DNA of 28,260 nucleotides from a virus. The stretch covers positions 1-28,260 of the IMG/VR virus record IMGVR_UViG_3300017788_000129; one strand, written 5' to 3'. Below are positions 2,474 to 23,625 of the stretch, piece after piece. Below the pieces are notes generated by a model that was given only the letters and a program-made list of their open reading frames with translations, had not been told where the DNA came from and searched no databases. Both the position numbers and the translations under genes were made by a program. Position 1 is the first letter of the stretch, and each line of letters begins with the position of its first letter.

Positions 2474-2914
2474 TTAGGTATTAGATGTGTTTGCCGTTAA
2501 AGAATCAATTATTTTTTGAATTTCGTTTTCAATATTTTCTTCTGTTGTTTTTTCTTCAACAACAACCGGCTTCACTGCTGCAAATTCTTTACCAACAAGC
2601 GAAGAAGCATTTGATAGAGAAGTATCTACGTTTGGATCCAAAATATCATGTTTCAATTTAAACCAATCATATGGAGCCGAATCATTGGCAATTTTCTGTA
2701 TTTCTTCTGCTGTTGGTGTAGTATCAGTTTTCCATATATTGATATGATAGTCGGTTTGGCATCTTTGTGGAGAGCCGTCTGATCTTCTTGCGATTGATCC
2801 GTCACTATTGAACGAAATTGACAAACTATCTTCCGTCAATACATCTGTGTAATATCTAACGATAATAGAGTGTTGATTAGGATCAATATCAATTATTCGA
2901 TATTTGACTTCCAT
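2474..2914 (-). CDS. Adhesin-locus protein X1 (146 aa), paralogue of X2
   Basis: I do not recognise the family by function. The protein is clearly paralogous to the product of 4547-4984. Both share a YYTD-LTED segment, a DGS-xxR-DGSP-RCQTDY core, an NIWKT motif and a DWFKLKHD-LD segment, then diverge in an acidic, Glu-rich tail. The ATG at 2914 follows GAGGAAAAAA, a strong ribosome binding site. A CATAAATA octamer lies 33 bases upstream. Both copies are associated with glycine-rich adhesin genes, which suggests a role in adhesin folding, attachment or virion incorporation. That role is inference. No catalytic motif or membrane segment is seen. Confidence 0.7.
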   Translation of the reverse strand: MEVKYRIIDIDPNQHSIIVRYYTDVLTEDSLSISFNSDGSIARRSDGSPQRCQTDYHINIWKTDTTPTAEEIQKIANDSAPYDWFKLKHDILDPNVDTSLSNASSLVGKEFAAVKPVVVEEKTTEENIENEIQKIIDSLTANTSNT

Positions 2915-2946
2915 TTTTTTCCTCGTGTTCTAGTGCATACACTATA

Positions 2947-2954
2947 TATTTATG
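2947..2954 (-). promoter_or_regulatory. Candidate T4-type late promoter (CATAAATA)
   Basis: The minus strand reads CATAAATA, seven of eight matches to the T4 late consensus TATAAATA. It lies in the divergent gap between the minus-strand X1 gene and the plus-strand oxygenase, about 33 bases before the X1 start codon. That spacing suits a late promoter followed by a short leader with GAGGA. The same octamer recurs before gp8. Confidence 0.55.
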
Positions 2955-2982
2955 TGAAAATAAACGTCATGTGGAGAATTTC

Positions 2983-3600
2983 ATGTACAAAGCTTTGTCC
3001 AATAGTCCTGAAGAAAGATCAAATATAACATATTCGTGGGCTTATTGGGATAACGGATTTAGTGAAGATGAAATAAGAAGAGTTGAAGAAATATGTTCTT
3101 TGAATAAAGTACAAAAAGCAACTATTGTTGGAACTCAAGATGAGCAAGAAGTTGAAAAAGTAAGAAAATCAAAAGTCCACTTTTATAAAAAAGACAAAAA
3201 TACAAATTGGATATTTGATAAATTCAATGCAATCATAACAGGTATAAATGAAAGTTACTATAACTATAATCTAAACGGATATCATGATTTTCAATATACT
3301 GAATATTATGCTAGTGAAGAAGGAAAGTATGACTGGCACATGGATATGTTGCATGGCCAAAGTAATCAAAATGGGACAAGAAAACTATCAGTTGTGATGT
3401 GCTTATCTGATCCAGAAAAAGATTTTGAAGGTGGTGATTTTGAAATAAATGTCGGTAATCAAAATGAACCACAAAAAATAGTTATGAAAAGAGGACGAAT
3501 CATATTTTTTCCATCATATATCATTCATAGAGTAAAACCCATAACTAAAGGTATTAGAAAATCAATTGTGATATGGGTAATTGGCCCGAAGTTTGTTTGA
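2983..3600 (+). CDS. 2-oxoglutarate/Fe(II) dioxygenase (PKHD/prolyl-hydroxylase-like)
   Basis: This is the only convincing plus-strand gene. I chose ATG at 2983, preceded by GGAG at 2973-2976, over the in-frame GTG at 2971 because the purine-rich element lies between them; this gives 205 residues. The double-stranded beta-helix iron site is visible: His119 and Asp121 in a WHMDM motif, His182 in IIHRV, and Arg192 in GIRKS for 2-oxoglutarate. The order HxD...H...R and the EGGDFEI segment fit the prolyl 4-hydroxylase/PKHD (PiuC-like) class. Such enzymes hydroxylate protein or small-molecule substrates using O2 and 2-oxoglutarate. Its stop codon directly abuts the stop of the convergent glycine-rich adhesin gene. 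Substrate is unknown; the adhesins are attractive candidates. Confidence 0.85.
   Translation: MYKALSNSPEERSNITYSWAYWDNGFSEDEIRRVEEICSLNKVQKATIVGTQDEQEVEKVRKSKVHFYKKDKNTNWIFDKFNAIITGINESYYNYNLNGYHDFQYTEYYASEEGKYDWHMDMLHGQSNQNGTRKLSVVMCLSDPEKDFEGGDFEINVGNQNEPQKIVMKRGRIIFFPSYIIHRVKPITKGIRKSIVIWVIGPKFV
3571..3600 (+). repeat. Left copy of imperfect 30-bp direct repeat flanking adhesin 1
   Basis: These are the last ten codons of the intact oxygenase (IWVIGPKFV and stop). They match 4508-4537 at 24 of 30 bases in the same orientation. The two copies bracket the adhesin gene at 3601-4509. Confidence 0.8.
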
Positions 3601-4509
3601 TTAATTACTTGTATTTCCGCTTAAAGTTCCTATAGCAATAAAAGTAATTAAATTATTACCTGCAATTGCAAATCCAGTATTTCCTACATTGCCTGTAGCA
3701 CCAGCAGCTCCTCCTGGTTTTGCACCGAGAGTTGCATTAAATGAATAACCACCACCGCCGTTAGCACCACCGAATCCAGCTTGTGCTGTATTCCCACCCG
3801 GTCCTCCTGCTCCAGCAGCAGGACTTCCACCAGACGATGCCGCGCCTCCGGCACCACGTAATGATGCTGTACCGTTTGCTCCAGCTGATCCTGCAGGAAC
3901 ATATAGTGAAACACCACCTGTGCCACCAGTTCCACCAGAAACTCCGGCGCCGCCACCACCGCCGCCACCTCCATAATAATTGTAGTATGGCACACCCTTG
4001 CTTGGAACATACAAATATCCTGTTGCGCCACCACCACCGCCGCCACCACCGCCCGATCCTCCGGGTCCGCCATTGCCACCTCTAATGATACCAAGATTAT
4101 TCAAATACATTCTTAAAACTTGACTACCTGTTTCAGCTTGAAATGCAACTGATCCGTTTGCACCACGAAGTCCAGTTCCGCCTGCTGAACCAGCAACACC
4201 GTCAACAGGTGAACCACTGTAACCAGAACCTCTACCACCAGCACCACCTGTTCCAGAAACACCTGTATTACCAACATTTCCGACTATGTTTGCTGAATTT
4301 CTTATGAAGAAATATGTTGAATTCGCCCATCCTGTACCAAGTCTTAATGCGGGACCATTGAAAACATTGCTTGATACATTTGCATCAATAAAACAAAATA
4401 AATTTACAGGGTATGTGGGTGTATTTGCACTTGCTCGCAAATTAACATTATTTGCAACTGTAGAAATTGTTATAACTTGATTTGGTCGTGTAACTATTGT
4501 TGTAAACAT
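3601..4509 (-). CDS. Glycine-rich adhesin 1 (302 aa)
   Basis: A conserved N-terminal segment of about 70 residues (IVTRP, then NLRASA, then an SGTGGAGG run) leads into a long glycine-rich body. The body has two poly-glycine blocks separated by a YYNYYGG segment. The C-terminus has a short conserved cap, NNLITFIAIGT. This layout recalls the polyglycine-sandwich adhesins of T-even phages (gp38 type), which sit at fibre tips and bind the host surface. Overall relationship to gp38 is by analogy, not proven homology. It is paralogous to 5004-5924. No good Shine-Dalgarno precedes the ATG: the leader is occupied by a remnant of an oxygenase gene on the other strand. Confidence 0.75.
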   Translation of the reverse strand: MFTTIVTRPNQVITISTVANNVNLRASANTPTYPVNLFCFIDANVSSNVFNGPALRLGTGWANSTYFFIRNSANIVGNVGNTGVSGTGGAGGRGSGYSGSPVDGVAGSAGGTGLRGANGSVAFQAETGSQVLRMYLNNLGIIRGGNGGPGGSGGGGGGGGGATGYLYVPSKGVPYYNYYGGGGGGGGAGVSGGTGGTGGVSLYVPAGSAGANGTASLRGAGGAASSGGSPAAGAGGPGGNTAQAGFGGANGGGGYSFNATLGAKPGGAAGATGNVGNTGFAIAGNNLITFIAIGTLSGNTSN

Positions 4510-4537
4510 ATGGGGTATTGGTCCAAAATTTGTTTAA
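4508..4537 (+). pseudogene. Ten-codon C-terminal remnant of a second 2OG-Fe(II) oxygenase
   Basis: The plus strand reads IWGIGPKFV followed by TAA. The intact oxygenase ends IWVIGPKFV and TGA. Eight of nine residues match, and four of the six base differences are synonymous or stop-to-stop. This pattern indicates a former coding sequence rather than chance. It overlaps the adhesin 1 start codon by two bases and fills its leader. No further oxygenase sequence is recognisable to the left. Confidence 0.75.
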
Positions 4538-4546
4538 AAATTAAAA

Positions 4547-4984
4547 TTATTTCTTTGTTAATTCTTCCAATAACTCTTCTATTTCTTGGTCACTTAATGG
4601 TTTAGATTTTTCTATTTTTTCTTCTATTTTTTCTTCTATTTTTTCAGATTCAAATTCTTTACTAAGCATATCTTTAATACATTCTAAAGATGTATCTACT
4701 TTCTCATCCAATACGTCATGTTTTAATTTAAACCATTCATGTGGAAAACAATCATTAATATATTTTATAATTTCATTCTTAGTTGGTGGTGGATTTGTTT
4801 TCCAAATATTAAGATTATAATCTGTTTGACATCTAATAGGTGAACCATCTTTGTTTCTTTCAATTGATCCATCTAAATTAAAAGATGTTGCCAAATTATC
4901 TTCCGTTAAAAAATCAGTATAGTATCTAACAACGATTGAATGTTGTGACAAATCAAAGCTTAAAATTTTAAATTTAAAATTCAT
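4547..4984 (-). CDS. Adhesin-locus protein X2 (145 aa), paralogue of X1
   Basis: The first 110 residues align throughout with X1, including the RCQTDY, NIWKT and EWFKLKHD-LDEKVDTSL segments. The two tails differ: X2 has a lysine/glutamate tail with an EKIE tetrapeptide repeat. The ATG at 4984 follows AAGGT and an A-tract, a reasonable ribosome binding site. It is more AT-rich than X1, so the two copies have evolved separately for some time. It lies immediately downstream of adhesin 2, so an adhesin-linked job such as chaperone or connector is plausible. Function is not known. Confidence 0.7.
   Translation of the reverse strand: MNFKFKILSFDLSQHSIVVRYYTDFLTEDNLATSFNLDGSIERNKDGSPIRCQTDYNLNIWKTNPPPTKNEIIKYINDCFPHEWFKLKHDVLDEKVDTSLECIKDMLSKEFESEKIEEKIEEKIEKSKPLSDQEIEELLEELTKK
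4609..4644 (-). repeat. 12-nt tandem repeat (three units) encoding EKIE
   Basis: Three consecutive 12-bp units built on cttctatttttt (plus strand) encode repeated Glu-Lys-Ile-Glu in the acidic tail of X2. Units two and three are identical. Length change here would keep the reading frame. Confidence 0.85.
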
Positions 4985-5003
4985 TTTTTTTTACCTTAAA
5001 TTA

Positions 5004-5924
5004 TCAGGACACAGGCCCGTTTCTAGTGCCTAATGATATATGTGTAATATTTGAGTTTCCTGTTACAGAATTTCCCTGAGATCCTGAGGGTCCTGTTGGT
5101 CCGACAGGTCCACCAGATCTAAATCCATACGTGCCCGATCCATATGCATTTGAAATGCCAGGATTTCCTGCGCTACCTAAATTACCTCCAGCACCCCCCG
5201 TTGTTGCTGTAACAGCAGCCCCGCCACCACCAGCACCACCGGCACCGCCAGTTGTTGACCCAGAAGTTGTAGTTGTTCCAGCACTTCCATTTGTACCACC
5301 TGGACCTGTACCAGTACCACCAGCACCACCTGAAGCTCCAGGAGTTCCTGCACCAGCACCACCACCACCGCCACCAAAGAAACTAGAATAACCAGGAACA
5401 TATGGTGCTGGTGCAACATCAGTTCTACCTGCAGCCCCACCACCGCCGCCGCCACCGCCACCTGTTCCACCGGAGCCTGCAGAGCCACCCGTAAATGTTC
5501 CAGATCCATTATCAAGAACTATACGAATATTTGATACAGTATCCGCAGTAAAAGAAGTTCCTCCTGTCCCACCAGTTCCACCTGTACCACCTTGATTACC
5601 TTGAGTGCCATCATTAGGTCCGCCATTTCCCTTACCACCAGCACCGCCTGAGCCGGGTGTTCCTGTAGCTCCTGCCACTCCTGTAATAGTGCTAGAATTT
5701 TTTATGTAAATGTCTGTGCCGCCATGCCAACCAGAACCGGTTCTATATGCAGGAACACTTGCAGAGGAACCTGTTACCGCGGCAGTAACAAATGCATAAA
5801 CATTAATGGGAAAGTTTGCATTAGGAACACCAATAGTAGATCCAACAGAAGATCTTAAATTATAATTACTTGTTGTTGATGTTACATTTACTATTGCGTA
5901 TGGGCGAGATATTATTGCGAGCAT
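5004..5924 (-). CDS. Glycine-rich adhesin 2 (306 aa) with collagen-like triplets
   Basis: The domain layout matches adhesin 1: an IISRPYAIVNV start, an NLRSSVG segment, two poly-glycine blocks around an aromatic SSFFGGG break, and a conserved C-terminal cap with NITHISLGT. Near the C-terminus there is a GPVGPTGPSG run of collagen-type Gly-X-Y triplets that adhesin 1 lacks. Prolines are also scattered in the glycine blocks. By analogy to polyglycine gp38-type tips, it probably forms the host-contacting end of a fibre. It is followed within 20 bases by X2 and preceded within 15 by a fibre-like protein. Confidence 0.75.
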   Translation of the reverse strand: MLAIISRPYAIVNVTSTTSNYNLRSSVGSTIGVPNANFPINVYAFVTAAVTGSSASVPAYRTGSGWHGGTDIYIKNSSTITGVAGATGTPGSGGAGGKGNGGPNDGTQGNQGGTGGTGGTGGTSFTADTVSNIRIVLDNGSGTFTGGSAGSGGTGGGGGGGGGAAGRTDVAPAPYVPGYSSFFGGGGGGAGAGTPGASGGAGGTGTGPGGTNGSAGTTTTSGSTTGGAGGAGGGGAAVTATTGGAGGNLGSAGNPGISNAYGSGTYGFRSGGPVGPTGPSGSQGNSVTGNSNITHISLGTRNGPVS

Positions 5925-5939
5925 GATGTTTGCTTCAAA

Positions 5940-6611
5940 TTACGATCTAACATCCGGTATCATTGCACCAAACATATTGGTACCATCAGAAACAAATGAA
6001 AATAAATCTCTCCTATTTGCACCACTAGTTAAAGTTGGATTAACGTTAGCGGTAAATTTATATTGATTTGAAAAAGTTAGTGTTCTACCACCAGTGCCAT
6101 CCTGTATTACATGGAGAATATATGTACCAACTCTTAAACTACTTGCATTTGCAAGCGTTCTATTTCCAGCAAGAGTTACGGTTGCTATTTGACCAAGAGA
6201 AGTGTCCCAAGAAATTGTTGAGGCGTCAGTTAACGTTTGAGATAATATATTTGCGGCGGCAATATCTATTGTTCCACCAGTTGCTCTTAAATTTTGACTA
6301 ACATTTATTGTTGGAACAACAAGTGTTCCTATCATTGTGTCGCCAGTCTTTAATAAACTATTGCTGGCAGCACTGTTTGCTACATTAGCTCTATCAAACG
6401 CGGAATTAGCTGTATCAAACGCGGAAGAAAGAGTAGAAACAACATTTAGTGAACCAAAAAATAAATTATTTGCAGTAACAATATTTGCAGTAACACTACG
6501 ATAAGTTTGTAGACCATCACCAAGCAAATCGTTAATTACAACAATAAGTTGATTTGTAGTTACTCTCCATTCATCAAACGTATTCGTTAGTGATACATTA
6601 CTGATGGCCAT
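5940..6611 (-). CDS. Fibre-like virion protein (223 aa), paralogue of the 326-aa protein
   Basis: Residues 1-45 (SLTNTFDEWR, NDLLGDGL, TYRSVTAN) match the N-terminus of the product of 9091-10071, and so does the C-terminal half (LAGNRTLANAS, IQDGTGGRTLTFS). The two differ in the middle: this protein has only AFDTANSAFDRAN-type repeats and no cupredoxin domain. The shared N-terminus probably docks to the same virion component. The ATG at 6611 follows GGAG at about ten bases. It lies between the 788-residue fibre and adhesin 2, so it may be a connector or adapter for the adhesin. That role is inference. Confidence 0.7.
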   Translation of the reverse strand: MAISNVSLTNTFDEWRVTTNQLIVVINDLLGDGLQTYRSVTANIVTANNLFFGSLNVVSTLSSAFDTANSAFDRANVANSAASNSLLKTGDTMIGTLVVPTINVSQNLRATGGTIDIAAANILSQTLTDASTISWDTSLGQIATVTLAGNRTLANASSLRVGTYILHVIQDGTGGRTLTFSNQYKFTANVNPTLTSGANRRDLFSFVSDGTNMFGAMIPDVRS

Positions 6612-6683
6612 CTAAATTAACTCCGTTATTTTTTAGCACGCTCAAAAACTTCAAATATAACTACAAATTAAGTGGTATTAGCT

Positions 6684-6691
6684 ATTTAGTG
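6684..6691 (-). promoter_or_regulatory. Weak late-promoter-like octamer (ACTAAATA)
   Basis: The 100-bp gap 6612-6711 is the longest intergenic space in the window. Its minus strand holds ACTAAATA, about 73 bases before the start of the 223-residue gene, with GGAG close to that start. It is identical to the octamer at 1247-1254 but only six of eight to the T4 late consensus. No hairpin terminator was seen in this gap. Confidence 0.3.
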
Positions 6692-6711
6692 TTACAAAAA
6701 TCATCAAAATT

Positions 6712-9078
6712 TTATCTGGCTCTCGCGTACTTAAATGGGGTTTCGGCATATGCAGCAAACAGATAGCTAATGCCACTATTGTTTACCGAGTAGCCGGTTG
6801 GAGCACGTAGCTTAAAGCCGTTTGACAAAAGATCGAAGCCGTAGACGTTCGAAGTTGTATCGGCGTTCGCAAGATCCGAGAAAACAAAATTGATAATCTC
6901 GTTGTCCCTGTTCGATGCGTTTGCCATTACCCAGCTAGTCGCTAAGTTGCGCGCCTTGATCATCAAGAACTTGGGCCTAAACCCGCACCAAACGAACGGC
7001 CCGTCCGTTGAGGCATTACCGGTGTAGCTGCCAATCTTGCTGAAGCCATCGACCTCGGACCAGAGGTAGGCGACAATGCTGCATGTGTTTTGATTGACAA
7101 AGGAATCAGTTCCAACCGTAAAGACAGATGATGTTGGAATAGTGTTGTTAAAAAATAATCCGTAAGCACCTTCTACCGCTGCCGATGACATATACATGTA
7201 GTAGTTGGCTGGAGTTGTTCCTCCGTTGAGCATGGAATGGTAAAATACCGGAACCGAAGCCGGAGACGCACTGGTGTCAACGTTTTTTATGATCATCATA
7301 TTGGGAACAACTCCAAGAGAATGCGCGATTGTTCGATTGGTTGCATTTCCTGTGTAAGTTACGATGTCGAAGCCCGGCGTCGCGCCTTTCTTCCACGCCC
7401 AATCGACGTAAGTATTCGTGTTTATGTTGACGCCACGCGAAGACGCATCGCTGCCCAGCGAATAACCGTTGGAGTCGAAAGCCGTCAGCGAGTTGGCGTC
7501 GGTGTATTGTGAACCGCTAGCGTTAGTGTTAAATCCCTTTTGCACCCCACGCGAACTATCGAAGAGGTTGTGTGATGTTGCATTGCTGCGCGACTTGATC
7601 CACACGAGATCCGGTTGGAACCCGAGAGAGGACACCGATGCCGTTGCGCCCGTTCCGGTCCGCTGCGTGGCATCAAAAAAGAGTGAACTCTTCTTGATGG
7701 AGGGCGTCGTGAGGTTTTTTGTGTTCAGCGCCTTAAAGCCGGTGGGCGGCGTGTAGGAGAATGGACGCTGGCCGAAGTTCATACTGACTCCACCGCTTGC
7801 TGGATTAGGTAGGTTTACACCAGCAAACAATCCGCTCGGTATTGATGAAAATCTAGGGTCTGTATTTGTTGCGGGGTTTGCAGTTCCGCTCGTGTTATAC
7901 CAAGTGCCATTTCTTCCGACCCACATTGTTCCATTGTCAGAATCAACAGCAAACATTAGCACATTGCCTGATGTTGGATTTGTATTTGTTCCCCATGCGG
8001 CAAATGCAGCATTGTTTGATTGAAATTGAATGTATGTATATGTAGTTCCCCAAGCGACTTGATATTCATTTCCTGTGCCTGAAATAGAACCGCTATTTGG
8101 TCTGTTTGCAGAATAAATGCCAGCTTGATAAAGAATGGGAGTATTGTTGAGGGTTAATTCCCAATACCATTTGCCGCTGTTAGGCACAGGCATTGTGGCG
8201 CGAGCAAGCCAGTAATCTGCAATGCTGGTGGGGATAACCGTGAGATTTCCTTCGCTGAACGCAAGGTTTGTGTTTTTGTCCAGCGGGTTCATCACCGCAT
8301 AGTTCAGCGTCGGCGTGTCGAGCATCTGATCGAACGTCGTGCCGCTCGTCACCGAGATGCCGCTTGGCGTCCAGTTATTGGCGTTGCCAGAGCTGTCTTT
8401 TCCAATGGCGGCTGCGGTGGCGGCACTGGCGTCTTTGAATTCCAAAAGAAAACCGTTTGTGCCGTAGGTGCCCGCGTAGGCTTTCGGAACCCACACGCCA
8501 GTCGTTGCGTCGGTCCGGCCGAAACTGGACGGCGCAAGTTGCTGACCGTCGATCATGATCACGTTAGAGAGATTGCCATCGAAAAGTTGGCTGACACCAC
8601 TGCCGATGGTGCCTATGCGCTGGACGACGTTATTGTTCGCTTGCGACGAGTAGTTCAGTGAATAGTTGGTGTTTGTACCTGTAAAGGACGTGATTTCAAT
8701 CCCGTTGACGTAAAGGCGATTTCGCAGTGAAGCAGTGCTTTGCGTGGTGTCGACAGCCACAACGACATGGTACCAAGCACTTGGATCGCGAAATTTTGCC
8801 GCGCTGTACTTTTGAGCTACCGCATCGTCATACAGAAAAAAGCTATCGTCAGACAGAAAGCCAATCTGAAAGTTCGATCCAGAACCCCCAAAGTACAAAG
8901 AGTTCTGCACCCCGGGTTGGGCGCGCTTCACCCATGCTGAATAGGTGAAGATTTGACGATTACCCGCAGACCCCGGCGTGCGCGCCAGATACGCGCTGTT
9001 GCTGGCGCGGAAGCGCAGCGAGTTGGAAATAAGATATTCTGTTTTACTTAAAAGTAAATGATTAACATTATCCGACAT
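6712..9078 (-). CDS. Mosaic tail fibre: LamG-like, SPRY-like and C-terminal DUF domains (788 aa)
   Basis: Residues 1-17 form an AT-rich N-terminal stub. Residues about 18-193 resemble a concanavalin A/LamG-type fold (SAWVKRAQPG, WYHVVVAVDTT, RLYVNGIEI, LSNVIMIDGQ). Residues about 288-443 resemble a SPRY domain (GKWYWELTL, QAGIYSANR, GTMWVGRNGTWYN, GLFAGVNL). Residues 450-788 contain repeated FQPDLVWIKSRS and VDWAWKKG-type motifs. I recall these from a phage tail domain of unknown function (DUF7483-like). Such proteins are candidate receptor-binding fibres. Base composition shifts sharply: 73% GC over 8971-9026 against 21% over 9027-9078, and 35% in a sampled SPRY line. Acquisition of most of the gene from a GC-rich source is likely. 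Confidence 0.8.
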   Translation of the reverse strand: MSDNVNHLLLSKTEYLISNSLRFRASNSAYLARTPGSAGNRQIFTYSAWVKRAQPGVQNSLYFGGSGSNFQIGFLSDDSFFLYDDAVAQKYSAAKFRDPSAWYHVVVAVDTTQSTASLRNRLYVNGIEITSFTGTNTNYSLNYSSQANNNVVQRIGTIGSGVSQLFDGNLSNVIMIDGQQLAPSSFGRTDATTGVWVPKAYAGTYGTNGFLLEFKDASAATAAAIGKDSSGNANNWTPSGISVTSGTTFDQMLDTPTLNYAVMNPLDKNTNLAFSEGNLTVIPTSIADYWLARATMPVPNSGKWYWELTLNNTPILYQAGIYSANRPNSGSISGTGNEYQVAWGTTYTYIQFQSNNAAFAAWGTNTNPTSGNVLMFAVDSDNGTMWVGRNGTWYNTSGTANPATNTDPRFSSIPSGLFAGVNLPNPASGGVSMNFGQRPFSYTPPTGFKALNTKNLTTPSIKKSSLFFDATQRTGTGATASVSSLGFQPDLVWIKSRSNATSHNLFDSSRGVQKGFNTNASGSQYTDANSLTAFDSNGYSLGSDASSRGVNINTNTYVDWAWKKGATPGFDIVTYTGNATNRTIAHSLGVVPNMMIIKNVDTSASPASVPVFYHSMLNGGTTPANYYMYMSSAAVEGAYGLFFNNTIPTSSVFTVGTDSFVNQNTCSIVAYLWSEVDGFSKIGSYTGNASTDGPFVWCGFRPKFLMIKARNLATSWVMANASNRDNEIINFVFSDLANADTTSNVYGFDLLSNGFKLRAPTGYSVNNSGISYLFAAYAETPFKYARAR

Positions 9079-9090
9079 TATAATATAATC

Positions 9091-10071
9091 TCAAGTATCA
9101 TTACTATTACCAACGTTTAATAAGGCATTGCACACATAAGAATTTGCAGTTCTTACTGAATATACAATTGCATCAACAGCATTTGCAGTTGTTGTTAAAG
9201 TTGGAGCAGAATTATCAACAAACTTATATGCCAAACCAAATGATACTGTTCTACTACCTGTGCCATCTTGAATAATGTATATTACACCAGACTGACCTAC
9301 TGTTGTATTTGTTGCATTGGCCAATGTACGATTACCACCAAGTGTTACTTTAAAATTATTGTTTGATGAAAAATCTGGTGTAATAGTTGCCGCATCAGTT
9401 AATGTAGTTATTAGTCCTGACGATTTTCCGCCTGGGTGTCTTATTTTTATAGATCCAACCATTCCACTATGAACAGAGCATTGATAAACATAGTTGTTAC
9501 TAGATAGTTCAAATGGAACTTTCCAATATAGTGTACCAGTCACTTGACCTTGAGCTGCTGAATTTGTGGATACAGTTCCATTTGTTGCAACATGAGTTAG
9601 ACCTGTGTTATAATTTGAACCACCGCTTGATTGACGAATCATAAATGGATGTCCAGTAACATTTAAATTAAATGCTATCGTTTCACCTGAGGAAATAAAA
9701 ATTTCAGGATTATTACCCAAATATTGATCTATTAAATATGCAGAGGAACCACTATTCGTTACGCTTAGACGAGTAACGGAAGGTAAGTAAACAGAATTAG
9801 CTTGAGTGAATGCTGCATTAGCTTGATCAAATGCAGCTGTAACTGCGGCAGAACTTCCAGCCCCGTTAGCAGCATTAAATGCTGCAATAATTGTTGGTTC
9901 AACGTTCATTGTTGAAATAGTAACAACGTTTGCAGTAACAACGTTTGCAGTCAAGTTGCGATATGTTAAAAGACCATCACCAAGAATATCATTTGCAATA
10001 ACAGCAAGTTGATTTGTAACCAATCTCCATTGGTCAAAAGTGTTTGTTAATGCGACATTACTAACTGCCAT
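9091..10071 (-). CDS. Fibre-like virion protein with a cupredoxin domain (326 aa)
   Basis: Residues 1-45 and 222-326 are paralogous to the 223-residue protein at 5940-6611. Residues 76-94 hold AFDQAN-type repeats. Residues about 100-212 look like a cupredoxin (plastocyanin/amicyanin class): a GETIAFNL strand, His141 in GHPFMI, and a YQCSVHSGMVGSI loop with Cys198, His201 and Met204. The C-x2-H-x2-M spacing equals that of amicyanin, so all four type-1 copper ligands appear present. Cupredoxins usually transfer electrons; here the context suggests a structural or ligand-binding role on the virion. A GGAGAAAAAA site precedes the ATG, which overlaps the upstream stop (TAATG). Confidence 0.75.
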   Translation of the reverse strand: MAVSNVALTNTFDQWRLVTNQLAVIANDILGDGLLTYRNLTANVVTANVVTISTMNVEPTIIAAFNAANGAGSSAAVTAAFDQANAAFTQANSVYLPSVTRLSVTNSGSSAYLIDQYLGNNPEIFISSGETIAFNLNVTGHPFMIRQSSGGSNYNTGLTHVATNGTVSTNSAAQGQVTGTLYWKVPFELSSNNYVYQCSVHSGMVGSIKIRHPGGKSSGLITTLTDAATITPDFSSNNNFKVTLGGNRTLANATNTTVGQSGVIYIIQDGTGSRTVSFGLAYKFVDNSAPTLTTTANAVDAIVYSVRTANSYVCNALLNVGNSNDT

Positions 10072-16871: not shown

Positions 16872-18194
16872 TTAGTACTTTATGACTATTTTCATTATTT
16901 CGGCTTGATCATCAATTCTTGTTACAGGAGTTATATTGTCTATGTATATAACATAACCTGAACGGTTTTTTAAATTAGGATTTATAATAGAAGTTATAAA
17001 ACGATTTCCACCTGAAGTTAATCCATTTAACGTGGTTGTTGTTGGTGTTCCCGTATATTCAGTAACCTTCATTATATTTGTTGAAGTATTCCAAGAGAGA
17101 ACTCTGGCACTAAAGGTTGAAGAATCGAGAGATGCCCCTTGATAAACGTATTCATCTGGAATATACTCTGGGCCCGACCCTGCAATTGCAAAAGTTAATG
17201 CTTGAGAAAATACGGTATTTGTAAATGCATTTGATGAATTAAATATTAATGGATTTTTAATTATACTAACTTGTCTAAAATCGTTATTTGCAATAAGTGC
17301 TTCATCCTCATCACCGTCAATTCTTACACTTGTAAGAATATTTGATCCGCCAAGTTCATGTACAGGATCTTTTCCGTGACCGCCCTGAGGACCAATCACA
17401 GCACGAGCAACTGCATTTGCACCGCCACCACCTGATATTGTAACATCAGCAAATGTATACCCTGTTCCTCTTGTAGTCACAACAACATTTGCAATTGTAT
17501 TGCTAACAGTATTTACAAATGCTACTGCAGTTGCATTTTCACCATCACCCGAAATAGATACTACAACATTTGATGTGTTTGTATAATTTATGCCACCATT
17601 TGCAACAAGAATAATATCTAACGCACCATCAACGGCAGCAGATTGAACGGCAAATTGTTGGGATGCATCATCACTAATTATTGTGCGAACTGGAATGAAT
17701 TCATTTGTAAGAAATTTTTGCCTATCTCTGGTATTTAATGTGTACATATATTTCCAAACATAACCATCCGCTTCGGTGCTAGAAAAACTAGGCTGAACAT
17801 ATGTTGGCTTTGATGTGGAATTTGATGAATAATTATTCGAGAGACATTTATAAACATTAAAATCATCAGTCAAGACATAGAATTGAGTATTTTGATCAAA
17901 AAGTGTGTTTGATGTGTCATCATATGCTTGATATTTTGTGTTTGCGTTCCAGTTTACTCTTTTTATTGCAAGAGTAATATCATTTCCTGTAATTTTTTTC
18001 CCGCCAATAATATTTCGCCAGACATCATCTATATCACTTAATGTATCTACCGCTGTATTGGGAAGAGAATCATTTGCCCAAGGAGTATTTTTACCGTAAG
18101 CAACATACAAATGTGTGGCGGCCGGCTCTGATACCGATTCTAAAAGCTGTTCTGCTGAATTTATTCTAATATTTTGAGTTGTTATTGCTGTCAT
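16872..18194 (-). CDS. 8: Baseplate wedge subunit gp8
   Basis: The N-terminal 170 residues match the gp8 type of T4-like marine phages: HLYVAYGKNTPWAND, an IIGGKKI segment, AIKRVNW, TQFYVLTDDFNVYKCLSNN and EADGYVWKYMYTL. At 440 residues it is longer than T4 gp8 (334). The excess comes largely from a beta-repeat insert at about residues 190-270, with GTGYTFADVTISGGGG-type units shared with neighbouring proteins. In T4, gp8 dimers bind gp10 and gp7 in the wedge. Here it lies between gp7-like and the DUF4815 gene, consistent with that. A CATAAATA octamer overlaps the stop of the preceding gene, 23 bases upstream. Confidence 0.85.
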   Translation of the reverse strand: MTAITTQNIRINSAEQLLESVSEPAATHLYVAYGKNTPWANDSLPNTAVDTLSDIDDVWRNIIGGKKITGNDITLAIKRVNWNANTKYQAYDDTSNTLFDQNTQFYVLTDDFNVYKCLSNNYSSNSTSKPTYVQPSFSSTEADGYVWKYMYTLNTRDRQKFLTNEFIPVRTIISDDASQQFAVQSAAVDGALDIILVANGGINYTNTSNVVVSISGDGENATAVAFVNTVSNTIANVVVTTRGTGYTFADVTISGGGGANAVARAVIGPQGGHGKDPVHELGGSNILTSVRIDGDEDEALIANNDFRQVSIIKNPLIFNSSNAFTNTVFSQALTFAIAGSGPEYIPDEYVYQGASLDSSTFSARVLSWNTSTNIMKVTEYTGTPTTTTLNGLTSGGNRFITSIINPNLKNRSGYVIYIDNITPVTRIDDQAEIMKIVIKY

Positions 18195-18216: not shown

Positions 18217-18224
18217 TATTTATG
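18217..18224 (-). promoter_or_regulatory. Candidate T4-type late promoter before gp8 (CATAAATA)
   Basis: The minus strand reads CATAAATA across the end of the gp7-like gene, seven of eight matches to TATAAATA and identical to the octamer at 2947-2954. The gp8 start codon is 23 bases downstream with AGAG just before it. The leader would be short. A TATAAT hexamer overlaps nearby (18206-18211). Confidence 0.45.
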
Positions 18225-21200
18225 CTGGAGTGCTTGAGGAGTTTGAACAATCAATGATATTATTTGCAAAATTGAAATCGCCGCCAACTCCACTATTAAC
18301 ATTTGAGTAAAGCGCATTACTTCTTAGATAGATTATCGGAGTTACTTGAACACTCACTCTGCCCATATATCCGTTTGATTGTAAAGGATTACTTGGTAAT
18401 AGAGTTCCATTTGCACCTACAAAGAAATTTCGTATTGTTGCATTTGAAATGTCGATTTTACTATTTGAGAACCAAATCTCTGATAAACATCCATCGTATG
18501 CAGTATTTAAATTAACCTCAGACCCAATTGAAACATTACTACCTCCAGTATAATCAATTAAACCTAAATTAAGGTTATCAATTTTTGTTGAATTAACATC
18601 ATTTAAATACACATGACAATTTGAAATTGATGATAAATCCCATGTTGCAACTATATGATTCCAAACATTTTTAAATATAAACGTTGAGGCATTTGATGAA
18701 AAATCAAGTAGCGTTGTTTCTTCCGAATTTCTGGCAACAATTCTAATAATATTTCCTTCACTACCGGATGTATTTGCAAACTCGGGTGATATTATATCAC
18801 CATCACCTATTAATGCACCAACCGTCAAGTTTGCACCCGATCCGGCACCGGAAACGCTAAGAATAGGAAGTGCGTTTGGACTATATCCAAAACCACCAAC
18901 TAGATGGCCAGAATTGTTTGTAAGGGGTCGCATTGTTGCATGAATAATTGCACCAGTTCCATTAACAGTTACCGTAGCATTTGCACCAAATCCATAACCG
19001 CCAATAATATTTGTAAATGTCACTATATTTCCATTTGAATATCCTGATCCAGGGGAATTAACGTTTAATCTGCCAATTATTCCAAGATCTCTAAGAAATG
19101 TATTTCCTGTGGCATTAACAGTTGTCGATACTGTGTTATATCCAAATCCTTGATTATTCAAAGCAATGTTAGATATTGGTCCAAGATTGGAAATTACAAA
19201 AAATGTTAATGTGGAAAGAAGTTCTGTATTTGCATTTCCACTGGTTCCATTACTATATGCACCAATAACAGTTGCATTGTATGTATCAATAACATCGGAA
19301 TTAATGTTGTATGTGTTCGGATGAAAAATACCATTATTTGAAACACTAATTATCGTTGCATTTGCATTTGAACCTATTCCGGAGATAATCACATTATCAT
19401 TTGTGCTAAATCCTGCACCGCTATATACAATTGTTAATTCCTGAATTTTGCCTAATAATGAATTTGCTCTATTTGTAAGAGATACAGAAACTCTTGGTAA
19501 GTACAAGGAATTTGATGTATTTGAAATGGAAAAAATTGTTTGATCATTTGCTAAATTATTTGGTCTAAACCAAAAACTAATTGTTCCTGTCGATCCATTA
19601 GATATATTACTCAAAGCTGATGTTTTATAAATTATTGAATTTGAACCATTAAAATCTATTGAATTAGCAACATATGGAAAATATGTTGTCGTATTTGAAT
19701 CTGTTACAGTAATTGTATTATTTACGATAGGTATGGACTCATATAAAAATTCACCCAAAAGTTTTAATCCTGCAGGATGTATAAAACTTAAAACATATTG
19801 CTTATAATCTTGTAATGATTTACGAATTCTTACAACGTAACTAAAATTCTGATAATAATCTTTATCTTCCAAATAATTTGAACTACTTAATAGTCCAGTA
19901 TCATCTTTAAATCTACCAGCAGATGTAAATGTGCCAGTAACAATGGTAACATTTGCACAGGCAAGACCATTACCAATTCCGGTAAAATCAAGAGTTGGCG
20001 GAGTTACGTATCCCGAACCACGATTAGTAATTGTTAATTCTTCAATAACTCCAATGCTTCCTGTATTGGCCGTAAGATTTTCACCAAATCCAAGTAAAGC
20101 AGAAACAACAATGTTTGCACCTGAGCCACTACCTGAGACAGAAACTGTCGGCAGATGTGACATGCTATAACCAGCACCACCTATTATATGACCGGCACTT
20201 AAAATTTTCAAGTTTGTATTTACAATTGTGCCGGATGCATCTGTTACAACATTACCATTAGCACCAAATCCAAAACCGCCAGGAATATTTGTGAATATTA
20301 GTTGGTCACCATTTGAATAACCAGTTCCCCCATCATTGATTGTTAATTTACCAATAATTCCAAGATTTTTTATTCGTGTATTAGCTATTGCCGATGCGAT
20401 TGGAACTGAAGTATAATTATTTCCACCAGTTGATAAAACAATTGATGCTATTGGTCCTGTATTTCCATACACAAAAAATGTTAAAGTATTTGCTAATGCT
20501 GTATTTGCATTTCCGCTGGCTCCATTACTATATGCACCAATTGCAGTTAAGTTATATGTATCAATAATATCAGAATTAATATTATATGTATTTGGATGTG
20601 TTAAATTATTATCAAAAACTTCAACAACTTTTGCATTTGCGTCTGAACCACCACCACCGGAAAACAAAATAAAATTATTTACTTGAAATCCTGCACCACC
20701 TGAAACTACACTAACATTTGATATATTTCCGGCAGACACATCTGAAATAATTACAGTTCCACCAGAACCAGAGCCCCCAATAACCGGTACTGAATTTCCT
20801 ATAGTATATCCTGAACCACCATTAGCTATAGCTACTAAAGATATGAATCCACTAATAATATTAGCTGATAATGTTTCTCCGTCTATATTTTTTGCAAAAA
20901 CTTCTTCATTTGCAGTAAAAGTGCCTTTATTTTTTGAAATAAAGAACTCGTTTATTCGTATTCCTGATTCAAAAGATATAGAAACTTTTTCAATTTCTGC
21001 TGTTGCTGTAGAAGTGTTTCCTCTAATGAGAGTATTTTCAAATTTTTTTAAACTAGAAACGGATTCATCTGAAATTTGATTTACAAATGTGTTGGCCACT
21101 CTAATGGATTTTTCTTGAAACCATTTACCAGAAGAAGCCACTAAAATATCATTTTTGGGATAATATATCTCTGCCGATTCGTTAAACAATAATCTAAAAA

Positions 21201-21546
21201 AAAAGTTGTATGCTTTTTCTGTACCTTTAGCACGATAAAAATCTTGAATGTTTTTTAATAATTTTGATTTATCGGCTTGAGCATCTTTTGGTATAGCTAA
21301 TAAAAATTGATTAAATAAATGATTGTTAAACTCATTTAATCCTGTTTCAGTAATTTTATCCGTATCAAAATAATTAGGTAAATTTTTTGCACGTTCTGTA
21401 GTTTTACCAAATGCCAAAGTTGTATTTGATTGTTCCAAATACTCATAATATGCTTTGATAAATGCAATAAATGTTGGATGATCCGATTTTACAAAATCAG
21501 GTAATTGATTGCTAACTACCGTTGAGATCTTGTTATTTGTTGCCAT
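18220..21546 (-). CDS. 7: Baseplate wedge gp7-like protein with embedded lectin-like fold (1108 aa)
   Basis: Residues 1-170 fit the gp7 family of T4-like marine phages: LPDFVKSDHPTFIAFIKAYY, then FNNHLFNQFLLAIPKDAQ and FYRAKGTEKAYNFFFRLLF. Length is near T4 gp7 (1032). The body holds many GGxGYTxGN/P-type beta repeats. Residues about 276-491 and 700-920 are paralogous copies of one block. A LamG/concanavalin A-like domain starts near residue 619 (SIDFNGSN, TISFWFRPNN), is interrupted by the second block, and resumes near residue 925 (IIRIVARN, WNHIVATWDL, CHVYLNDV, CLSEIWFS). Its start codon directly abuts the gp6 stop. In T4, gp7 bridges gp10, gp8 and gp6/gp53 in the wedge. Confidence 0.75.
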   Translation of the reverse strand: MATNNKISTVVSNQLPDFVKSDHPTFIAFIKAYYEYLEQSNTTLAFGKTTERAKNLPNYFDTDKITETGLNEFNNHLFNQFLLAIPKDAQADKSKLLKNIQDFYRAKGTEKAYNFFFRLLFNESAEIYYPKNDILVASSGKWFQEKSIRVANTFVNQISDESVSSLKKFENTLIRGNTSTATAEIEKVSISFESGIRINEFFISKNKGTFTANEEVFAKNIDGETLSANIISGFISLVAIANGGSGYTIGNSVPVIGGSGSGGTVIISDVSAGNISNVSVVSGGAGFQVNNFILFSGGGGSDANAKVVEVFDNNLTHPNTYNINSDIIDTYNLTAIGAYSNGASGNANTALANTLTFFVYGNTGPIASIVLSTGGNNYTSVPIASAIANTRIKNLGIIGKLTINDGGTGYSNGDQLIFTNIPGGFGFGANGNVVTDASGTIVNTNLKILSAGHIIGGAGYSMSHLPTVSVSGSGSGANIVVSALLGFGENLTANTGSIGVIEELTITNRGSGYVTPPTLDFTGIGNGLACANVTIVTGTFTSAGRFKDDTGLLSSSNYLEDKDYYQNFSYVVRIRKSLQDYKQYVLSFIHPAGLKLLGEFLYESIPIVNNTITVTDSNTTTYFPYVANSIDFNGSNSIIYKTSALSNISNGSTGTISFWFRPNNLANDQTIFSISNTSNSLYLPRVSVSLTNRANSLLGKIQELTIVYSGAGFSTNDNVIISGIGSNANATIISVSNNGIFHPNTYNINSDVIDTYNATVIGAYSNGTSGNANTELLSTLTFFVISNLGPISNIALNNQGFGYNTVSTTVNATGNTFLRDLGIIGRLNVNSPGSGYSNGNIVTFTNIIGGYGFGANATVTVNGTGAIIHATMRPLTNNSGHLVGGFGYSPNALPILSVSGAGSGANLTVGALIGDGDIISPEFANTSGSEGNIIRIVARNSEETTLLDFSSNASTFIFKNVWNHIVATWDLSSISNCHVYLNDVNSTKIDNLNLGLIDYTGGSNVSIGSEVNLNTAYDGCLSEIWFSNSKIDISNATIRNFFVGANGTLLPSNPLQSNGYMGRVSVQVTPIIYLRSNALYSNVNSGVGGDFNFANNIIDCSNSSSTPA
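18790..19445 (-). repeat. Internal duplication in gp7-like gene, copy B
   Basis: About 650 bp encode a block with SGAGFSTND, HPNTYNINSDVIDTYN, IGAYSNGTSGNANTEL, LGIIGRL, GGYGFGANA and LPILSVSGAGSGANL. It is similar in order and sequence to copy A, offset by about 1275 bp. Similarity is also visible in the DNA, for example around 19260-19323. This copy lies inside the lectin-like domain. Confidence 0.85.
20070..20720 (-). repeat. Internal duplication in gp7-like gene, copy A
   Basis: The block encodes GGAGFQVNN, HPNTYNINSDIIDTYN, IGAYSNGASGNANTAL, LGIIGKL, GGFGFGANG and LPTVSVSGSGSGANI in the same order as copy B. It lies between the conserved gp7 N-terminal domain and the lectin-like domain, so it is probably the ancestral position. 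Confidence 0.85.
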
Positions 21547-23625
21547 TTAGGTTTCACTCTTCATTGTAATCAAAATAGCCGTAGGATCTTCTGGATCTAT
21601 TGATAACAATCTATTTCTAGAGGGAAGTATTGTTGCGTCTAGAGGATATATGTTTAGTGTTAGAACACCGGATGCATAATTGGGGTTTGATGTAATTGAT
21701 GTTGGTTTAAAATTATTAATATTAATTTGACCTGTATCATAATTTATAGTGCCAAAGTTTTCATTTAGTGTGACTTTTTCTCCAGTTGTTCCTAGTATGT
21801 AATAGCTTCTTAATACACCAACTGATGCTGACAAAATAGATACCGCAGTTGCTCCTGAACCCGTATCATCTGTGATTGAAACAACTGCAGCAGTATAGTT
21901 TGAACCTTTATTTACAATGTTAATAGAAATTATTTTTCCATTTACTACGACCGCTTTTCCAGTTGCGCCAGATCCATCACCTGTTATTTTAATGGTAGGA
22001 CTATCTGTATAACCAGAACCAGAATTTGTCATCTCAATACTTTCAACACCGGTAAATGATAAAGGTGTTTCTTCAATTAATGCATCTCTTGAAATTCCCT
22101 CGCCATCTAAAATTGAAAAAGTTGGATATGAATATAATTTTTCAGTATAAAGTCCGCGGCTTAATGGCATGGAAAAATCAATAACATAGTTTTTTGACTC
22201 GTTTAAAGTTGGTTCAAATCTTTTTTGAACGACCGTTTTCACAGAACTTCCTAAAAATGAATCTTCACCAGATGATATTAAATTTTGTAATTTAGAAGTT
22301 CTATATGCAGAATTAAATTTTTCAAGATCTGTATCATTATAAGAATTAACAATATTTTTAACAATATTTGCTAAAGAAGCCTCATCTAAAATTGTATTTT
22401 TTATGTTATAATTTACAGAAATTTCAAATTTTAAGTATAGAAAGTCTGGATCAACTATTTCAGGTGTTACCGTAACTACATTTCTATTTGAAATTAATTC
22501 TTTTACTATTCTATCTTTTTCAGCTTGTGTAATTACATAACCACTTTTGGGCTTCATGGAAATAAAAATTTTACCATAAACAACAGGAATATTTTCTTCA
22601 CCACCCCAAACAGATATGGATTCTACGTCTGGATAATCTTTTAGTAATAGAGTTCCATAATCGTCTTTTGTAACTGCACGATTTTGAGCAGTATAAAATC
22701 TTGGTGCCAAAAACTTAATTCTATCAATTGTATCTCGTTGTGCTCCACCCGCAGCAGCGGAAATCGAATTCACAACAACATTTGAAAAAGAACCCAATGA
22801 AGAAATAAAAGTAAATGAATTTGCTTTATTTGACGCTTGGCCATCAGAAGAAAGATACTTTAGATTAACTATATTATCATCTGATAAATTTTTTCCTATA
22901 ATTCCATCACCAAAATATATGTTATAGTTTTCTTCATCCGTTTCTTCCAAGAAATATACTTTTGAATTTGAATCAAGTGTAGTTACATCATCTGCAAGAA
23001 TAAATGTATTTTTTGTGGAATCAACTGAAGAATTTGTAATAGAGACAATCAAAGTTGAAGTATCAATGTTTGCATCAGGTATTAAAAATCTTCTTTTTGT
23101 ATTCGTTGCATCAACAACAACATTATATGTTATTGTTTCACCCTGTGTAATCAAAACGTTTGAAAAAGTATATGTATTTGATGTTACATTTTTTGATGCT
23201 GAATATGAATCTAAATTCACGAAAGTATAGTTTACTCCATCAATTTGTTGTGATTGAAATTTACTATGTGCCGGAAGGACAATTGTTGATAGTCCACTTG
23301 TCGGATCAGTATCCGCTACAACAATATCAATAGATGCAGTTGCACCTTTTGTTGATGTGGGAACATAATTTAAATGCTTTGCATGAGATGCAACTGAGTT
23401 TCTTAATGTGGCACTATCCAAAAACATCTCATTTCCTATCATATTTAAATAATAGGCCATGTAATGAGTATTATATGATAAAACATCCAATAATATGTTT
23501 AATCCAGAACCCTCAAAGTCATATTCCGTAAATTGATTTTGACTTCTTAGATACTCTCTTAAATTTATTTTAATTGTATCAAAATCAAGTTCTGCTATTC
23601 TTAGAACTGTATTTGAGGTTGTCAT
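21547..23625 (-). CDS. 6: Baseplate wedge subunit gp6 (baseplate J-like)
   Basis: The 692-residue length is close to T4 gp6 (660). The N-terminus contains LNILLDVLSYNTHYMAYYLN and NEMFLDSATLRNSVASHAK, typical of gp6 and baseplate J-like proteins. The mid region has YNIYFGDGIIGKNL and DRIKFLAPRFYTAQNRAVT, also family hallmarks. Residues about 530-595 hold two GSGYTDSPTIKITGDGSGA-type repeats, a beta insert shared with gp7, gp8 and the 499-residue protein. Gp6 dimers form the inner baseplate ring that links wedges and drives sheath contraction. The gene starts one base after the gp25 stop (TAATATG) and abuts gp7, fitting a coupled wedge operon. Confidence 0.92.
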   Translation of the reverse strand: MTTSNTVLRIAELDFDTIKINLREYLRSQNQFTEYDFEGSGLNILLDVLSYNTHYMAYYLNMIGNEMFLDSATLRNSVASHAKHLNYVPTSTKGATASIDIVVADTDPTSGLSTIVLPAHSKFQSQQIDGVNYTFVNLDSYSASKNVTSNTYTFSNVLITQGETITYNVVVDATNTKRRFLIPDANIDTSTLIVSITNSSVDSTKNTFILADDVTTLDSNSKVYFLEETDEENYNIYFGDGIIGKNLSDDNIVNLKYLSSDGQASNKANSFTFISSLGSFSNVVVNSISAAAGGAQRDTIDRIKFLAPRFYTAQNRAVTKDDYGTLLLKDYPDVESISVWGGEENIPVVYGKIFISMKPKSGYVITQAEKDRIVKELISNRNVVTVTPEIVDPDFLYLKFEISVNYNIKNTILDEASLANIVKNIVNSYNDTDLEKFNSAYRTSKLQNLISSGEDSFLGSSVKTVVQKRFEPTLNESKNYVIDFSMPLSRGLYTEKLYSYPTFSILDGEGISRDALIEETPLSFTGVESIEMTNSGSGYTDSPTIKITGDGSGATGKAVVVNGKIISINIVNKGSNYTAAVVSITDDTGSGATAVSILSASVGVLRSYYILGTTGEKVTLNENFGTINYDTGQININNFKPTSITSNPNYASGVLTLNIYPLDATILPSRNRLLSIDPEDPTAILITMKSET

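Follow-up and report, generated by a model that had tools for sequence, protein, structure and literature searches.

The baseplate wedge gene and its surroundings

The stretch of DNA analysed here (the window) is a virus record of 28,260 bases that carries on its minus strand a T4-like baseplate cluster, encoding a gp5-like hub/lysozyme, a wedge protein in the gp25 position, a gp6-like protein, a protein of 1108 aa, a gp8-like protein and a 1683-aa DUF4815 protein. As in the T4 gene order, the 1108-aa gene lies between gp6 and gp8, both neighbours being identified by Pfam, and its product matches the Baseplate_wedge family PF23786 (47 bits, cut-off 27) as well as PHROG baseplate wedge families. 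Judged by its sequence, this product is the baseplate wedge protein of a T4-like phage. The gene has the following features:

18220..21546, minus strand: baseplate wedge protein gene, 1108 aa; open reading frame between the gp6-like and gp8-like genes
20842..21546, minus strand: N-terminal domain (residues 1-235), partly homologous to T4 gp7 648-829 (hmmsearch, hhalign)
20080..20730, minus strand: block A (residues 273-489), the copy at the family-wide position (BLASTP, profile census)
19741..19917, minus strand: conserved frame segment (residues 544-602), preceding the variable C-terminal region (profile match, alignment)
19465..19734, minus strand: first part of LamG (residues 605-694; profile of uninterrupted relatives)
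18757..19461, minus strand: whole insert in the LamG loop (residues ~696-930), block B plus a C-terminal linker (alignment, junctions)
18796..19452, minus strand: block B (residues 699-917), duplicate of A (BLASTP, shuffles; AlphaFold2 model)
18232..18756, minus strand: second part of LamG and C-terminal tail (residues 931-1105; profile positions 95-268; Laminin_G_3 24.4 bits)

The original prediction named this protein after gp7 of T4, and the name is justified for one part of it: some 170 N-terminal residues are homologous to residues 648-829 of T4 gp7 (hmmsearch 2.2e-11 in a one-sequence search, hhalign probability 95.8), while the rest is not detectably so. The alignment takes in only about 170 of the 1032 residues of T4 gp7, the full-length architecture is not matched, and the block, the frame, LamG and the insert have no detected counterpart in the T4 protein. 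According to the excerpted text of PMC7029224, pelagimyophages and cyanomyophages lack T4 Gp7, which VrlC seems to replace.

The ten best phage records listed for the window gp6 show at most 40% identity (over 70% of length) and include phages of Methylophilales, Pelagibacter and Synechococcus; a host signal shared with cultured relatives was looked for in this comparison and did not emerge. The same gp6 (21547-23625) is 97% identical to that of L002 and only 87% identical to that of L001 (relatives are designated here by locus number), whereas the wedge gene is closely similar to that of both, which points to mosaic exchange near gp6. GxGY-type repeats are present in the gp8-like (16872-18194, residue 243) and gp6-like (21547-23625, residue 536) proteins.

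A block present twice in the wedge protein

A block of about 215 residues had been predicted to occur twice in this protein, and this is borne out: the block, of ~217 aa, is present as copies A and B, which share 116 of 220 residues by BLASTP (53% identity, E 1e-68) and reach a local alignment score of 599, far above that of 1000 shuffles (mean 72, maximum 114). The coordinates first proposed for the two copies were correct to within about 10 bases. At the DNA level the duplication appears as repeats of 151 nt (77% identity) and 139 nt (71%), spaced 1275-1278 nt apart. Weak profile matches at residues 233-262 and 497-538 correspond to single related repeats flanking block A; B is equivalent to all of A, and not to one such repeat. 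Very probably, B is a copy of a block that belongs to this gene family itself. In L001 (gene from 2334), the alignment places a 6-residue in-frame addition in block B, adjoining the ISGIGSNAN of the window, an instance of small-scale indel variation within the insert.

Block B is predicted to be a compact beta-rich unit by an AlphaFold2 model built from 60 aligned blocks (pLDDT 88.6, pTM 0.81). The PDB returned no match, either to a sequence search with the block or, at E 0.001 or better, to a Foldseek search with its model; against BFVD, Foldseek yielded 7 hits, led by three baseplate wedge subunits from uncultured phages. The second half of B is similar to the outer domain of gp18, the sheath protein of T4 (residues ~98-190, 3FO8; Z 5.4 over 79 residues at 2.5 A, 20% identity); the likeness covers residues 127-215 of the 219 in B, only half of the block, and has Z < 8. 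Among 17 T4 proteins the block profile picked gp18 alone (15.0 bits, the next protein scoring 3.2), and this score exceeds that of 500 gp18 shuffles (best 9.0). As a structural Z below 8 can reflect merely a common arrangement, we take the likeness to the gp18 outer domain as a lead and make no family assignment.

Block B splits a LamG domain

The original prediction placed B inside a LamG/concanavalin A-like domain, and this placement is upheld by a LamG profile that was built solely from six uninterrupted relatives. The profile matches the window protein at residues 605-701 (profile 3-100) and 926-1105 (profile 95-268), with a total E of 1.1e-65; taken separately, the flanks of B match with E 3.4e-19 and 1.4e-51, in order on one continuous profile that breaks at 93-100/95. 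In L019 and L023-L027 the break falls at profile position 93/94. Relative to the uninterrupted proteins, the insert comprises approximately residues 696-930, that is, an A-like block with a linker of ~13 residues at its C-terminal end; it occupies the place of a short loop, the reading frame is kept and both LamG halves are conserved. In the continuous L030, this empty site is a short loop between RFAVYLTSKG and TIRIVGRN; in the window, RVSVSLTNRAN is followed by the insert and then by IIRIVARN, and the alignment of these junctions confirms the flanking segments that had been named at the outset. Relatives with an unbroken LamG at the same place do exist: seven were found, L030 among them.

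The assignment to LamG itself comes from Laminin_G_3 (PF13385). The window (residues 602-1108) scores 24.4 bits, below the cut-off of 27.6, which is exceeded by L049 (36.0 bits), L111 (34.1), L023 (33.1) and L019 (30.6). L019 and L023 are orthologs with the same split as the window, and the L049 match is continuous (6-142 of 151), L049 being part of the profile that matches both halves of the window LamG. Among the uninterrupted proteins, L031 lies slightly below the cut-off with 27.0 bits; no hit to Laminin_G_3 was obtained for L029, L034 or L077 at E 0.1, or for L030 at E 1. The LamG profile found no match among PDB sequences.

We regard a domain-in-domain architecture, with B within LamG, as almost certain. 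It is profile homology and the empty sites that support the split, since the AlphaFold2 model of residues 602-1108 (LamG plus insert, with the LamG halves as separate rows of the alignment) reached a pLDDT of only 38.9. That low confidence in the LamG structure is what speaks for two unrelated domains around B whose likeness to one split LamG is coincidental; this is extremely unlikely, however, because both flanks match a single continuous profile in order and are 47-55% (first part) and 49-53% (second part) identical to the continuous L029 and L030, relatives that rule it out unless they are themselves misassembled. A misassembly provoked by the repeat can be dismissed as the source of the arrangement: in L022 (3877-6325) B does turn into A-type sequence ahead of the contig end, by assembly chimera or gene conversion, but nine distinct sequences have the same arrangement, which is read through in L001, L019 (with L020 and L021) and L023-L028, on contigs whose names suggest different datasets and whose B is 61-96% identical to the window B, while A and B of the window are just 53% identical to each other.

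Empty, filled and nested sites among relatives

The census of relatives comprised 94 proteins (the window, 80 loci and 13 further loci), or 70 after merging identical or contained sequences; since the 80 loci are the best 80 of 239, it tilts toward near relatives. L002, which ends inside A, and the loci from later scans lie outside it. Twenty of the 70 distinct proteins match the LamG profile, and they fall into three groups: (i) LamG is continuous in seven (L029, L030, L031, L034, L049, L077 and L079), six of which built the profile, L034 not being among them; (ii) nine carry the same insert at the same place (the window, L001, L019 and L022-L027, L022 ending at the contig end); and (iii) four have another arrangement (L013, L033, L036 and L051). 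Later LamG scans added little diversity, the scan of genome contigs giving 4 loci, and tblastn of the C-terminal part of LamG, of block B and of the L030 LamG against 50,697 phage records returned nothing at E 0.01. A separate 398-aa protein, L111:5758-6954, has the same type of LamG and tail and is related to proteins of Roseobacter phage CRP-603 and of a Thiohalocapsa phage; from this sequence the LamG looks like a mobile module.

The insert had initially been read as an isolated, unusual event. It is less isolated than that: nine distinct sequences share it, and in other relatives the same LamG takes other inserts. In L036 (gene 3981-8105, 1374 aa) LamG breaks in another loop, at profile ~157-165 (residues 768 to 1258), and the insert consists of a second block copy (residues 850-1068) between propeller-like repeats (propeller profile matches at 776-844 and 1068-1206), the propeller label deriving from how the repeats are patterned and from L051, where SMP-30/gluconolactonase matches with 34.1 bits (cut-off 26.3), and not from a structure. 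The L036 sequence reads as a three-level nesting, with a block in a propeller-like region in LamG. In L051 (gene 4294-9867, 1857 aa) LamG is broken twice, at about residues 800-1466 and 1546-1813, and the interruptions contain propeller-like and GY-repeat sequence. L013 shows a weaker split match (profile 91 to 108, residues 929 to 1176, E 0.0035 and 8e-6), which suggests a different domain at nearly the same LamG loop as in the window. In L033, foreign sequence begins beyond profile position 84 and the contig ends there. On these alignments, insertion into the LamG of these wedge proteins is recurrent, and the presence of unbroken, differently filled and double-nested LamG domains in relatives suggests that LamG may be a site for adding new surface parts.

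Other parts of the protein vary as well. L013 (gene 4507-8667) has ~215 residues inserted in the N-terminal wedge domain (residues 88 to 302), and L018 (whose gene runs from 4498 up to the end of its contig) has an insert in that domain too, 50% identical to that of L013; these N-terminal inserts are weakly similar to the module inside the LamG of L013 (E 6e-5 for that pair). L076 (gene 2833-6957, 1374 aa) carries three block copies, and its N-terminal domain is partly repeated (residues 542-658 match profile 118-234).

Origin and subsequent evolution of block B

In a tree of 64 block copies, from which the near copies L024-L026 were omitted, the B copies of the window type group as one clade (100/99) inside the set of A and B copies of their lineage (97/93). 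L036 has two blocks that are sister to each other (99/95), and in L076 all three group together (99/96); these separate groupings indicate at least three independent block duplications; a common origin of the window B and the second block of L036 was rejected (AU p 0.006). Relative to the A copies of its lineage, B is basal (93/70), slightly deeper than the relatives without insert, a position that leaves room for transfer from a close relative or for later loss. Joining B to the insert-bearers' own A copies, as a lineage-specific origin would have it, lowers the log-likelihood by 3.06 units, and this topology was not rejected (AU p 0.27).

Two other histories of B have to be weighed here. B may stem from the A block of a different phage in this lineage, acquired by recombination, and not from its own A, as its basal position (93/70) and the mosaic exchange in the region (gp6 97% identical to L002, 87% to L001) would allow. 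We consider this unlikely: a faster-evolving B could be drawn artificially to the base, origin from its own A was not rejected (AU p 0.27), and the blocks of L036 are sisters (99/95), so self-copying occurs in the family. B does change faster, with 61% identity between the window and L023 against 77% for A. The same basal position would also fit a B that was present in the common ancestor and then lost from the uninterrupted relatives; this is quite improbable, as uninterrupted LamG also occurs in the distant L049, L077 and L079 and in the separate protein L111, and an old origin requires repeated clean loss.

After the duplication, A and B have exchanged sequence. Within a 38-codon tract of L023, the codons of A and B are identical at 34 of the 35 positions with the same amino acid, the corresponding values for orthologs compared with L019 being 20 of 31 (B) and 20 of 34 (A), and in both L023 and L025 an exact stretch of 59-60 nt is common to A and B on a background of ~65% identity. 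By these signatures, gene conversion between A and B has taken place in L023 and L025. The dN/dS of B is 0.15-0.23 (four ortholog pairs), which indicates that B is maintained under purifying selection. Between the window and L001, its near twin, the LamG halves differ by 15 nonsynonymous to 6 synonymous codons and four other segments by 19 to 37 (Fisher p 0.0045, for a comparison picked post hoc).

A putative outer-surface module of the baseplate

The following is, in our judgement, the likely explanation of the locus as a whole. In this wedge protein, B would have been copied by recombination from block A, either that of its own gene or that of a close relative, into a LamG loop, and exchange between A and B would have continued after the insertion, with a conversion tract in one sub-lineage. 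The N-terminal domain and the frame would anchor the protein in the wedge, and LamG would be exposed as a lectin-like adhesion module. Hanging from a loop of LamG, B would be an additional compact module that gives the outer surface a new shape and probably modulates how the host envelope is contacted. LamG would act as a tolerant insertion platform, other relatives carrying other modules in the same or in other loops.

The nearest parallel is offered by the evolved Dit proteins of siphophages, described in the consulted portions of PMC7291167 and PMC10688798 as having carbohydrate-binding modules in the loops of their galectin domain and as having a reported role in adsorption. On that description, and as far as those portions go, the two systems share some features and differ in others: (i) in both, a baseplate or tail-tip protein has a lectin-like domain with a module nested in one of its loops; (ii) in both, insert-free (classical, for the Dits) and insert-bearing versions coexist and the insert varies; (iii) in contrast to the evolved Dits, the carrier here is a T4-like wedge protein, LamG is the domain that receives the insert, and the module is a copy of the protein's own upstream block. 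No Dit family was among the Pfam and PHROG matches listed for the 1108-aa protein. In the tail fibres of Alteromonas phage A5, an in-frame insertion duplicates the knob (PMC10579305, seen as an extract); there too a domain of a host-recognition protein (a feature of A5) is duplicated in frame, but the A5 knob copies are apparently consecutive along the fibre and not nested in another domain. Searches of open-licence papers listed no title or abstract opening that describes such nesting, whether in a wedge protein of T4-like type or in the LamG of a phage.

Since in the evolved Dits, as the cited extracts present them, a module nested in a lectin-like baseplate loop can promote adsorption, a role in host contact is plausible; by this analogy we regard direct contact of the module with the host surface as evenly balanced. 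A serious alternative, whose probability we place a little short of even, is that B is a structural spacer or an element stabilising the baseplate, with no contact with the host. Block A is constant at the same place of the wedge protein across the family, and B may accordingly serve assembly or stability; in sheath proteins, extra domains have been proposed to contribute to stability as well as to adhesion (PMC9230969, in the section available), and purifying selection on B is compatible with either role. Against a spacer, LamG is uninterrupted in relatives, so the fold needs no B, and amino-acid changes are in excess in the LamG halves when two close strains are compared.

A bolder proposal, which we put forward tentatively and hold to be somewhat improbable, is that the LamG of this wedge protein family is a docking platform for Russian-doll adhesins, through which the baseplate would gain a rapidly changing surface for host contact, distinct from the tail fibres. 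The modules placed in two or three preferred loops, and also set into each other, would include block copies, propeller-like repeats and GY-repeat modules as well as other domains, brought there through copying within the gene and recombination between phages.

Whatever the function of the insert, this one protein family shows domain-in-domain evolution stepwise: its members include proteins with the site empty and with it filled, independent recurrences of such an insertion, conversion tracts linking donor and insert and, in L036, an apparent three-level nesting. If LamG contacts the host, the baseplate wedge would be, besides the tail fibres, a site at which T4-like phages remodel their host contacts, and this remodelling would parallel that of the evolved Dits of siphophages as these are portrayed in the extracts cited above.
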